A stretch of 64,000 bases of DNA from Isoptericola cucumis (GTDB lineage: Bacteria > Actinomycetota > Actinomycetes > Actinomycetales > Cellulomonadaceae): positions 124,001-188,000 of the forward strand of contig NZ_BMDG01000003.1 of assembly GCF_014635665.1 (NCBI RefSeq). Reading direction: 5' to 3'. The position numbers were made by a program, and so were the translations under genes. This document shows, piece by piece, positions 36,231 through 64,000 of the stretch. The notes under the pieces are model-generated. The model was not told the DNA's origin and ran no database searches. It saw nothing but the letters and a program-made list of their open reading frames with translations. The stretch's first letter is position 1; the number at the start of each line of letters is the position of its first letter.

Positions 36231-36274
36231 CGCCGGCCGGGCCTGTCGAGAGGTCCCGACAGGCCCGGCCGGCG
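36231..36274. terminator. 18-bp perfect-stem bidirectional terminator
   Basis: 36231-36248 and 36257-36274 are perfect reverse complements (CGCCGGCCGGGCCTGTCG as left arm) around eight bases. The stem begins at the base after the MFS stop and ends four bases before the stop of the convergent M64 peptidase gene, so it can serve both. Confidence 0.8.
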
Positions 36275-60756: not shown

Positions 60757-61254
60757 GTGAGCATCGCCGTCTGCCCCGGGTCGTTCGACCCGATCACCCT
60801 CGGCCACCTCGACATCGTCCGGCGTGCGCGCCGGATGTTCGACGTCGTGGTGGTCGGCGTCGCCCGCAACGCGTCCAAGAACGCGCTGCTGACGCCCGCG
60901 GAGCGGGTCGAGCTGGCCCGGACCGCGCTCGCCGAGGACCCCGCGACGGCGGACGTGCAGGTGGCGGAGGTCCCGGGGCTGCTCGTGGACTTCTGCCGGC
61001 AGGTGCGCGCCGTCGCCGTGGTCAAGGGGCTGCGCGGCGGTGCGGACTTCGACTCCGAGCTGCCGATGGCGCTGATGAACCGGCACCTGACCGGCGGCTC
61101 GACGGGGATCGAGACGGTCTTCGTCCCCGGGGACCCCGCCTACGCGCACGTGGCGTCGTCGCTGGTCAAGGACGTGGCCCGCTTCGGCGGGCCGATCGAC
61201 GACCTCGTGCCGCCCGGGGTCGCGGACGCGGTGCACGCGGCACTGGCACGCTGA
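60757..61254 (+). CDS. coaD: phosphopantetheine adenylyltransferase
   Basis: The 165-residue protein has the nucleotidyltransferase motif CPGSFDPITLGHLDIVRRA (TLGH near residue 15), VVKGLRGGADFDSELPMALM and the C-terminal VASSLVKDVARFGG. It makes dephospho-CoA from phosphopantetheine and ATP. The start is GTG 60757. The SepIVA-like gene follows after 11 bases, as in mycobacteria. Confidence 0.97.
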   Translation: MSIAVCPGSFDPITLGHLDIVRRARRMFDVVVVGVARNASKNALLTPAERVELARTALAEDPATADVQVAEVPGLLVDFCRQVRAVAVVKGLRGGADFDSELPMALMNRHLTGGSTGIETVFVPGDPAYAHVASSLVKDVARFGGPIDDLVPPGVADAVHAALAR

Positions 61255-61265
61255 AGGAGCGAACG

Positions 61266-61850
61266 ATGAGCGAGACGACTGCCCACCACCCCCAGGCAGG
61301 AGCGTCCGTGGGGGAGAACCCGACGGCGGGGCTGCTGGAGATCCTCGACGACCTGGCGGCCCTCGTGGAGAACGCGCGGTCCACGCCGCTGTCCACGAAC
61401 GTCAAGGTCGACCGGGACCAGGCGCTCGGGCTGGTGGACGAGCTGCGCGACGCGCTGCCCACCCAGGTGGCCCGCGCCGACGAGGTGCTCGCCGAGGCGC
61501 AGGAGTCGCTGGAGGCGGCGCACCGCCGGTCGGAGGAGATCGTCGCGTCCGCGCGGGCGCGGGCGATCGAGCTGGTGCAGGCGGAGCAGGTGGTGGTGCA
61601 GGCCGAGTCCCGTGCCGCCGAGATCGTGGCGGAGGCGGAGCAGAAGGCCGCCGCGCTGCGCAACGACGCCGACGAGTACTGCGACCGGCGGCTCGCGGAC
61701 TTCGGCCAGGACCTCGAGGCGCTGGGCGCCCAGGTGCAGGCCGGGCGCGACAAGCTCGCCGAGCGCCTCGACCGCGCCGCGCCGCGCGTGCGGTGGGACG
61801 CGGTGCAGGACCCGGCCTGGCCGCAGCAGGAGCCGCAGCAGGCGCGCTGA
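61266..61850 (+). CDS. SepIVA-like coiled-coil protein (DivIVA-related)
   Basis: The 194-residue protein is a mostly helical, charged coiled coil (about 85-170: VARADEVLAEAQESLEAAHR, VVVQAESRAAEIVAEAEQKA) without membrane segments. Its place between coaD and the DUF177 gene matches mycobacterial sepIVA, a DivIVA-family protein for septum and envelope assembly. The N-terminal GLLEILDDLAALVENARSTP fits that group. The role is inferred from synteny and helix pattern. ATG 61266 is preceded by GGAGCGA. Confidence 0.8.
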   Translation: MSETTAHHPQAGASVGENPTAGLLEILDDLAALVENARSTPLSTNVKVDRDQALGLVDELRDALPTQVARADEVLAEAQESLEAAHRRSEEIVASARARAIELVQAEQVVVQAESRAAEIVAEAEQKAAALRNDADEYCDRRLADFGQDLEALGAQVQAGRDKLAERLDRAAPRVRWDAVQDPAWPQQEPQQAR

Positions 61851-62061
61851 GACCACCGCGGGCGCCCTCGGCCGGACGCCGTCCCGGGGCGGGCCGGTGT
61901 AGCCGGGGTGCGACGGATGAGAGACGGGTCACTGTGCGGTGTCGTGCGCACGGCCCTGGCGATGGCCTAGACTGGACCGCTGGCCCCGAGTCCGGGCCGC
62001 CACCCCTTAGCACCGTTCAGACCTGGAGCCTGCCATCAGTACCGAGAAGCGTTCGCCGCTC

Positions 62062-62613
62062 GTGCTCGACACGCACGAGCTCACGCGGCGACCCGGCACG
62101 ATGGCGGAGGTCGCGCGAGTGGTCCCCGCCCCGGCGGACCTGGGCACCGTCGTCATCGGCATCCCCGAGGGCGCCGACCTCACGCTGGGCCTGCGTCTGG
62201 AGTCCGTGCTCGAGGGCGTGCTCGTGACGGGCGTCGTGCGCGGCACGGCGGTCGGCGAGTGCGTCCGTTGCCTCGACGAGGTCTCGGAGCAGGTGACGGT
62301 GCGGATCCAGGAGCTCTTCGCGTATCCTGAGCGCGCCCAGGCGGCCGAGGAGTCCGGTGACGAGGACGCCGAGGACGAGTCGGTGCTGGTCGACGACCAG
62401 GCCGACATCGAGCCGGCGGTTCGGGATTCGCTGGTCACTGCACTACCATTTCAACCGCTGTGCCGTCCGGACTGCCCCGGCCTGTGCTCCGTCTGCGGGG
62501 CGCGGCTGGCGGACGACCCGGACCACCATCATGACGTTGTCGACCCTCGTTGGTCGGCGCTGCAGACCATGCTCGAGCAGTCGAGCGTGTCCGACGAGAC
62601 GAAAGAGAGCTAG
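62062..62613 (+). CDS. DUF177/YceD family protein
   Basis: The protein has the DUF177 pattern: LDTHELTRRPGTMAEVAR, ECVRCLDEVSEQV, and the cysteine cluster CRPDCPGLCSVCGARLADDP followed by ALQTML. YceD proteins are linked to rRNA metabolism and always precede rpmF, as here. GTG 62062 is the first conventional start (183 residues), but conserved N-terminal residues (about EKRSPLV) lie upstream in frame, where the only candidate with a good GGAG is ATC at 62035. TAGACT (61968-61973) may be the -10. rpmF follows two bases after the stop. Confidence 0.9.
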   Translation: MLDTHELTRRPGTMAEVARVVPAPADLGTVVIGIPEGADLTLGLRLESVLEGVLVTGVVRGTAVGECVRCLDEVSEQVTVRIQELFAYPERAQAAEESGDEDAEDESVLVDDQADIEPAVRDSLVTALPFQPLCRPDCPGLCSVCGARLADDPDHHHDVVDPRWSALQTMLEQSSVSDETKES

Positions 62614-62615
62614 CC

Positions 62616-62810
62616 GTGGCTGTTCCGAAGCGCAAGATGTCGCGCAGCAACACCCGTGCGCGCCGTTCGCAGTGGAAGACCTCCGCGGCGACCCTCACGA
62701 CGTGCCCCAGCTGCAAGGGACAGAAGCTGTCCCACGCCGCGTGCCCCACCTGCGGCGCGTACAAGGGCCGCCAGTACGCCGAGGCGCTGCGCACCGAGCA
62801 CGCGGGCTGA
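62616..62810 (+). CDS. rpmF: 50S ribosomal protein L32
   Basis: The 64-residue protein is L32: [20 protein letters not shown], then a zinc ribbon with Cys30, Cys33, Cys43 and Cys46 (CPSC, CPTC). The GTG at 62616 follows AAAGAGAG. It lies between the DUF177 gene and rnc, the common actinobacterial order, and all three are probably cotranscribed. Confidence 0.97.
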
Positions 62811-62811
62811 C

Positions 62812-63591
62812 ATGTCCGCACGCGGCACCCGGGAACGCCCGGAGCCGACGGCTCTACTCGAGAAGCTCGGGGTCCACCTGGACCCCGAGCTTCTCGTGCT
62901 AGCGCTGACGCACCGCTCGTTCGCCCACGAGGCCGGCGGGATCCCCACCAACGAGCGGCTCGAGTTCCTCGGCGACACCGTCCTGGGGCTGGTCGTGACG
63001 GAGGCGCTGTACCGGCGTCATCCCGACCAGCCGGAGGGCGAGCTGGCGAAGATGCGCGCCGCGACCGTGTCGCAGCGCGCCCTCGCCGCGATCGCGCGCC
63101 GCCTCGAGCTCGGCGGCTACGTCCTGCTCGGCAAGGGGGAGCTGCGGACGCGGGGGTTCGAGAAGGACTCGATCCTGTCGGACACCGTGGAGGCGCTGAT
63201 CGGCGCCACCTACCTGTCGCACGGTCTGGAGCCCGCCCGCGAGCTGGTGCACCGTCTCGTCGACACCACGCTCGAGGCCGCGGCGGGCCTCGGCGCCGGC
63301 CTCGACTGGAAGACGTCGCTCCAGGAGGCGGCGGCCGAGCGGGGCTTCGGCGCGCCCGTCTACGAGGTCACCGGCGAGGGCCCGGAGCACGCCCGCGTCT
63401 TCCACGCCCAGGTGCACGTCGGCCCGGTGCTGGGGATCGGCACGGGCTCGGCGAAGAAGCACGCGGAGCAGGCCGCGGCCGAGGAGGCCTACCGGGCGCT
63501 GCAGTCGCTGCCCGGCACGACCTCGGCGGACGAGGCGGTCGAGTCGCCGGCAGACGGGCGGCCCACGGCCGACGACGTCGCCGATGCCTGA
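62812..63591 (+). CDS. rnc: ribonuclease III
   Basis: The 259-residue enzyme has the RNase III domain (signature [12 protein letters not shown], residues 47-58, with catalytic Glu51 and Asp55; later [12 protein letters not shown]) and a C-terminal double-stranded RNA-binding domain (about 165-240, [34 protein letters not shown]). It processes rRNA precursors and structured mRNAs. The ATG at 62812 is one base after the rpmF stop. A 38-bp palindrome lies in codons 16-29. The end overlaps mutM by eight bases. Confidence 0.96.
62859..62896 (+). promoter_or_regulatory. 38-bp palindrome in rnc, candidate RNase III site
   Basis: CGAGAAGCTCGGGGTCCA (62859-62876) and 62879-62896 are perfect reverse complements with only CC between. 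In mRNA this gives a 17-bp stem with a four-base loop, 47 bases after the rnc start. Perfect double-stranded RNA is the substrate of the encoded enzyme, so autocleavage is plausible. It encodes roughly [13 protein letters not shown], which leaves the protein normal. Confidence 0.65.
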
Positions 63592-64000
63592 GCTGCCCGA
63601 GGTCGAGACCGTCCGGGACGGTCTCGAGAGGCTCGTCGTGGGCGCCGTCGTGCGCGAGGTCGAGGTCTTCCGCGACTACTCGGTGCGCCGGCACGAGGGC
63701 GGTCCGGCAGGGTTCGCCGACCAGCTGCGCGGCCGGCGGCTGGTCGCCGCCGCCCGCCGGGGCAAGTACCTGTGGCTCCCGCTCGCCGGCGAGCGCGCCG
63801 GCGTCGAGGACGCGGCGCTGCTCGCCCACCTGGGCATGTCGGGACAGCTGCTGGTGCGCGACCCGGCGGTCGCGGGGGACTGGGCGCACCCGCACCTGCG
63901 CGTGCGCCTGCATCTCGACGACGCCCCCAGCGGAGCGCGGTACCTCGACTTCGTCGACCAGCGCACGTTCGGGCACCTGTCGGTCACCGACCTCGTCCCG
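63584..64000 (+). CDS. mutM: formamidopyrimidine-DNA glycosylase (5' part)
   Basis: The 139 residues present begin [20 protein letters not shown], whose Pro1 and Glu2 after Met removal are the catalytic residues of Fpg/Mut[10 protein letters not shown] (catalytic Lys), [13 protein letters not shown] and [16 protein letters not shown] follow. The enzyme excises 8-oxoguanine and formamidopyrimidines. The ATG overlaps the rnc stop by eight bases. The gene runs off the window end. Confidence 0.95.

Follow-up and report, generated by a model that had tools for sequence, protein, structure and literature searches.

A conserved RNA hairpin inside the RNase III gene of Isoptericola cucumis and related actinomycetes as a candidate site of RNase III self-cleavage

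Here, we report that codons 16-29 of the RNase III gene (rnc) of Isoptericola cucumis encode, in addition to a stretch of protein, a hairpin that comparative sequence evidence identifies as a conserved and selected RNA structure: the complementarity of its arms is kept within the genus and the arms covary across the family. That the fold is functional is near certain. We suggest that the hairpin is probably an in-frame site at which RNase III cuts its own message. Self-cleavage appears the most likely function because the RNA structure is under selection and because the literature describes autoregulation through the rnc coding sequence in S. aureus and, as cited there, in S. coelicolor.

Results

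Position and fold of the hairpin

An earlier note on this DNA had described two perfect 18-base arms with a 2-base spacer in codons 16-29 of the RNase III gene, and the same arrangement was re-derived here: the arms are exact reverse complements of 18 nt each, separated by 2 nt. The hairpin starts 47 nt 3' of the first base of the rnc start codon and spans +48 to +85 (Table 1). The RNA fold agrees with the 17-bp perfect stem and four-base loop that had been proposed for the mRNA, in that the arms are predicted to form an unbroken stem of 17 bp closed by a loop of 4 nt. Folded alone, positions 62826-62929 give a single long, interrupted hairpin with a z of -7.17, and none of 200 shuffles was equally stable. 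In longer sequence context, the unbranched arm is 17 bp; thus, the note's remark that the stem is slightly short is true for this window (the window being the whole 64-kb stretch of DNA that was analysed), while unbranched arms of 20-27 pairs were found in five of 20 chosen loci, all five from other lineages. Taken together, the arms, the fold and the protein domains place a stable double-stranded stem inside the rnc coding sequence. Because a single nucleotide separates rpmF from rnc and mutM overlaps the end of rnc, the gene order suggests that yceD, rpmF, rnc and mutM are likely to lie on one transcript.

Table 1. Features in and around the rnc hairpin (positions in the window)
Feature	Position	Strand	Basis
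yceD, upstream gene of probable operon	62062..62613	+	Pfam search
rpmF, ribosomal protein L32	62616..62810	+	1 nt between rpmF stop codon and rnc ATG
rnc, RNase III, 259 aa	62812..63591	+	translation; Pfam Ribonuclease_3 (1.9e-25), Ribonucleas_3_3, dsrm
possible outer helix, 5' side (A1 columns 24-25)	62850..62851	+	weak: covariation scan
5' arm of hairpin, codons 16-22 of rnc	62859..62876	+	perfect complement, fold, covariation
apical tetraloop ACCU in folded RNA	62876..62879	+	RNA fold
3' arm of hairpin, codons 23-29 of rnc	62879..62896	+	perfect complement, fold, covariation
codon 27 of rnc: CTT, a rare Leu codon; stem partner AAG (codon 18)	62890..62892	+	codon counts in relatives
possible outer helix, 3' side (A1 columns 75-76)	62901..62902	+	weak: covariation scan
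mutM, overlaps rnc 3' end	63584..64000	+	cut by window end

Two perfect stems of 18 bp occur in the window when loops are restricted to 2-10 nt; the rnc hairpin is the coding one, and the longest perfect stem in 20 first-order Markov copies of the window was 15 bp. When the 14 amino acids were held fixed and codons were drawn according to local usage, as taken from nearby genes with the rest of rnc among them, 18/18 Watson-Crick pairs arose in 11 of 400,000 draws, which bears out the claim that the pairing lies far above chance in coding DNA, although these draws pair on average at ~13 of 18 positions and part of the complementarity therefore comes free with the peptide.

Conservation in the genus and the family

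The rnc gene was present in 18/18 genomes of the genus and in 121/121 family genomes searched. In the genus, 17 of the 18 loci were readable at the site, and of these 16 pair at 18 positions and one at 17 (G.U allowed); hence, the arm complementarity, whose loss in close relatives would by the note's own test have refuted its reading, is kept. For the family and its near relatives, 132 loci were selected with the help of fetched stretches and of the species collection, from which named loci were taken among the best 80 of 571 relatives; 131 of the 132 were readable. L020 was dropped because its contig ends too early. One of the six peptide search patterns (EKLGVHLD) lies inside the hairpin and favours loci with that peptide; the genome draws are without such bias. 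The 131 loci, which are partly redundant, pair at 18/18 positions in 91 cases, at 17 or more in 104 and at 16 or more in 115. At the level of distinct 42-mers, 57 of 71 versions pair at 16 or more of the 18 positions; these 71 omit Demequina, Georgenia and three other loci, which were counted apart in the double-criterion survey described below. Five MAG loci of uncertain family are included in the pairing counts and form a separate class in that survey. Two loci (L170 and L211) have no gap-free alignment at the hairpin and were kept in the pairing counts but left out of the covariation, codon and tree analyses, while L164, which contains Ns, was dropped from the codon counts, the outer-helix covariation scan and the tree analyses. 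L211 (G065) is an observation in its own right: it has a quite different peptide in the hairpin region (REAGGAPRPPPLLV), yet a long self-complementary run in a shifted register, and may reflect faulty sequencing of a GC-rich hairpin or else a fold that has outlived its peptide.

Covariation of the arms

The arms also covary across the family, as the note had proposed to check. In the covariation set of 69 of the 71 versions, 93.0% of cells are paired and 7.0% unpaired, while controls with slid partners give 26-51% paired cells. Changes on both sides were found at 7 of 18 pairs, compared to an average of 4.0 in shuffles (2/500 reach 7), and the number of cells with a both-side change was 36 vs 7.9 in shuffles (0/500 reach 36). 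A tree control was run on 109 rows, with a quick tree derived from the remainder of rnc. In the pooled count, the 3' side followed independent 5'-side changes in the same way 14.2 times and went the opposite way 1.0 times, and slid partners gave 1.3-5.1 same-way vs 0.2-2.5 opposite. Among the pairs listed, none was significant alone in a single-pair sign test on the tree, the numbers being too small; only the pooled count together with its slid controls is informative here. RNAalifold on the 69-sequence alignment returned only 8 pairs, near the loop, and the per-pair counts were used instead.

The coupling is visible in individual codons. Among the 71 distinct versions, all 50 with AAG at codon 18 have CTT at codon 27. 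Where codon 18 is CAG, codon 27 is CTG twice (L045/L046, L035) and CTT once, and GAG at codon 18 occurs with CTC at codon 27 twice (L040, L156/L159). Similarly, GGC at codon 20 is found with GCC (P25A) twice (L209, L212) and with CCG once. Changes of E17 to N, D or S accompany L28V once each (L204, L207 and L206, respectively), while L28 is kept despite E17D twice and E17S three times. Where codon 21 has changed from Val to Ile, codon 24 is GAT in some loci (L030, L171), and an A.C mismatch results in others (L035, L204).

An outer helix beyond the 18-bp stem is possible. Its pairs 24-76 and 25-75, which were picked from overlapping data, are paired in 70.6% of cells, and their tree control is thin (2.6:0.3 and 2.1:0.5); no pair of this helix reaches a mean pairing probability of 0.25, and in the covariation scan from which the pairs came, column pairs that are not part of any structure (21-75 and 1-75 among them) score equal or higher.

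Codon choice and strand bias

Synonymous choice in the stem is close to invariant. Among 115 distinct sequences, L19 is CTC in 113/113, V21 GTC in 102/102, E26 GAG in 113/113, G20 GGG in 109/114 and L27 CTT in 100/113 of the relatives with Leu at that position; CTT accounts for 2 of 165 Leu codons in nearby genes, including the rest of rnc. Mean codon identity is 0.825 at codons 16-29 vs 0.613 at codons 31-90 (Mann-Whitney p 0.0005). As a separate observation, CTT is also common in the family just outside the stem, with 52/115 at each of codons 15 and 30, compared to 0-3 at the Leu codons listed between 32 and 78; in the rnc gene studied here, codons 15 (62854-62856) and 30 (62899-62901) are both CTA.

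Mismatches in the arms are strand-biased. G.U outnumbers A.C by 38 vs 17 in all 71 versions, by 29:6 where a version has no more than one transversion-type mismatch and by 28:4 in the 57 versions with 16 or more pairs, a criterion that counts G.U as paired and so leans towards G.U. This excess favours the sense RNA as the functional form, as support rather than proof, since it is partly set by which third positions can change silently.

Distribution across actinomycete lineages

With codons shuffled within the gene, the scan window covering the hairpin has a mean z of -2.43 over 222 of 223 distinct actinomycete sequences, many of them from the own family, and 65% of the 222 lie below -2; the 16 other scan windows in rnc, one of which overlaps the hairpin, have mean z values from -0.97 to +0.07. 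Over 22 operon loci scanned with dinucleotide shuffles, the hairpin is the strongest of 142 scan windows (mean z -6.5, 21 loci), and the next non-overlapping one has a mean z of -1.3. Hairpins of other sequence occupy the same codons in Streptomyces, Yinghuangia, three Demequina, Nocardioides, Enemella, Pseudokineococcus and several further families.

For a survey of distinct sequences, a positive was defined by a double criterion, i.e. a z below -2 together with a helix of 12 or more. In the class draw, 295/296 genomes had rnc, and the loci read were the better-scoring ones. By this measure, 134 of 275 sequences are positive, 81/99 in the own family and 53/176 outside it. Positives are frequent in named Streptomycetaceae (13/15), family f23 (4/5), the Nocardioides group (4/6), Enemella (2/2), Kineosporia/Pseudokineococcus (2/2) and the MAGs of uncertain family (3/5). 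They are also found in Demequina (3/7), f32 (2/4), f30 (1/2), f6 (1/2), the Jiangella group (1/2), Georgenia (1/3), other MAGs (1/3), Actinomyces (1/6) and loci that are single in their family (4/19). The element is nearly absent from f10 (2/30) and f24 (1/13), f5 has 7/30, f4, f19, f21, f22, f36 and f39 (17 in all) gave no positive, and two Propionibacteriales-like loci and L091 were negative. In other classes of the phylum, where 40 of the 64 genomes drawn were read, the 40 loci have a mean z of -0.13 with 2/40 below -2, which is the chance level. From these lineage counts and the chance level in other classes, sequence comparison assigns the hairpin element to some lineages within a single class. 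That the peptide does not impose the fold is seen in L253 of f10, which has a similar peptide with a z of 0.09 and no fold. Because only 53/176 sequences outside the own family are positive, feedback in the hairpin-negative lineages, if there is any, works otherwise. In f5, where the element is patchy, L302 carries a strong hairpin of different layout before its ALTHRS codons (z -4.0), possibly an independent version.

Discussion

Selection keeps the rnc hairpin double-stranded by constraining synonymous codons and probably also some amino acids. Based on these data, we suggest a model in which RNase III would bind the hairpin in its own mRNA and cut it; the cut would destroy the reading frame and leave the 3' part of the message open to decay, and RNase III would thereby limit its own synthesis. 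The product of rnc belongs by its Pfam domains to a family that cuts such duplexes, and where a strong duplex is kept in the message of a duplex-cutting enzyme, feedback is the simplest role. Several observations count against the model: compensation is imperfect, with the unpaired cells noted above and the one case in which CAG at codon 18 meets CTT rather than CTG, the stem alone is 17 bp, positives outside the own family are limited to 53/176, and the S. coelicolor cuts are placed in loop regions by a review. The earlier proposal of self-cleavage is partly supported: the RNA structure stands as a selected one, and cleavage is its most likely function.

Feedback by RNase III on its own synthesis has precedents in three species. 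In S. coelicolor, RNase III is reported to cut the polycistronic transcript of its own gene, absB (rnc), twice, once in the rnc cistron and once upstream, with stem-loops involved and both cuts placed in loop regions (PMC10126417); the autoregulation itself (Xu et al. 2008) is cited here as reported in PMC10126417 and PMC3386247. Loss of RNase III impairs antibiotic production in Streptomyces, again according to PMC10126417. In S. venezuelae, the 3' half of the rnc mRNA rises without RNase J. The system described here resembles that of S. coelicolor in that it is found in an actinomycete and has its stem within the rnc cistron; codons 16-29 also harbour a strong hairpin in other Streptomyces. 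It differs in that the S. coelicolor cuts are, according to that account, in loop regions with the second site upstream of rnc, and the Streptomyces hairpin differs in sequence from that of the Isoptericola family. According to PMC3386247, RNase III of S. aureus cuts a stem-loop in the rnc coding sequence and so lowers its own synthesis, and this stem-loop is said to be conserved among staphylococci. The stem-loop within the coding sequence is a shared feature; however, the S. aureus cut is described there at +296 in a long irregular helix, whereas the hairpin reported here lies at +48 to +85, is near-perfect and belongs to another phylum; the two sites are not the same. In E. coli, RNase III exerts feedback on its own operon by cutting a stem-loop (rncO), as cited in the S. 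aureus study, and this stem-loop is 5'-terminal in the mRNA; by contrast, the Isoptericola hairpin is inside codons 16-29 and is not of the leader type. The portions of PMC2936110, PMC4681348, PMC3328962 and PMC7509114 consulted name no site within rnc.

Conservation of the fold fits any function of the RNA. The hairpin lies past the initiation region, with its start 47 nt from the A of the AUG, and might act on translation or mRNA stability without being cut, either by slowing early elongation or because bound RNase III or another protein blocks ribosomes. We consider this unlikely, as it gives no account of why several families have the fold at a single position in a gene that encodes a dsRNA-specific nuclease, and the published cases of rnc feedback involve cutting. 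Cleavage might also serve to part yceD-rpmF from rnc-mutM, yielding much L32 and little RNase III with feedback as an incidental effect. The tight spacing of rpmF, rnc and mutM, which makes one transcript likely, agrees with this idea, but the cut would fall inside rnc and not between genes, and there is only a slim chance that segmentation of the operon is the purpose of the hairpin.

If the palindrome worked in DNA, as the site of a dimeric regulator or as a cruciform, the perfect symmetry of the arms around a 2-nt spacer would be understandable. A DNA site would, however, be expected to keep its sequence, while relatives show single-base bulges, loops of varied size and differing sequences at this position, and G.U outnumbers A.C both overall and in the well-paired versions; a function in DNA is therefore very improbable. 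Finally, a product of codon bias and a conserved peptide could account for the pairing that the peptide alone provides, but not for a probability of about 3e-5 in this genome alone, for family-wide conservation with compensation or for the absence of the fold from L253 despite its similar peptide, and we give chance next to no weight. Self-cleavage thus remains the reading that we prefer.

RNase III feedback as a kind of regulation is already known, in a few model species and with different sites. What is new is that the hairpin keeps its position and its fold while its sequence turns over among families of a single class, and that pairing is coupled to codons and to some amino acids. No paper on a conserved hairpin at this place in rnc was found among the abstract starts searched in the open literature, subscription papers being mostly outside that scope, and Rfam has no family that attains its gathering score in 61000-64000. 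We speculate, with somewhat less than even confidence, that in much of the class Actinomycetia RNase III is under the control of an "in-frame operator", a hairpin at one fixed coding place that retains its fold while each family has a sequence of its own there. Such an operator would freeze rare codons and steer amino acids near the N-terminus, coupling K18 to the codon used for L27, G20 to P25 and, in a few lineages, E17 to L28; the enzyme protein would thus coevolve with its own substrate. Most of f10 and f24 and the other classes sampled would have lost the operator or never acquired it. Our confidence in this wider idea, which had been closer to even, was lowered slightly because E17D occurs twice without L28V.

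A fold kept at one position in several families, with compensatory changes and clearly negative lineages, amounts to a testable evolutionary system: the same enzyme can be compared between lineages that have the element and lineages that lack it, and natural stem variants number in the dozens. It is also a clean case of RNA structure shaping protein-coding sequence, and the position of the hairpin predicts where the rnc cut should be sought in Streptomyces.

Other candidate elements in the window

Other identities for the rnc palindrome were considered and rejected. No T run follows it, as an intrinsic terminator would have. Four Rfam matches in 61000-64000 all remain below gathering scores. 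Two of them fall at the hairpin; they are to microRNA precursor families, and any long hairpin may look like a member of these. A repeat or mobile palindrome is not indicated either, as matches in the own genome (40 scored of 125 candidates) are the site itself and its own reverse complement.

Elsewhere in the operon, scan windows at -255 (rpmF) and -453 (yceD) from codon 31 show a weak excess of structure over the 22 loci (mean z -1.29 and -1.12, respectively), and we rejected them as a second conserved structure; because the second S. coelicolor cut in the review lies upstream of rnc, they are candidate regions for a second cut. An 11-bp perfect palindrome near the mutM start (63603-63627) was likewise rejected as a conserved element, the scan windows there being outside the 14 most structured in 22 relatives. 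The other 18-bp perfect hairpin of the window (36231-36274, 8-nt loop) is flanked by the 3' ends of two convergent ORFs, one of which matches an MFS transporter and the other Peptidase_M64 in Pfam, and looks like a bidirectional terminator-type structure.
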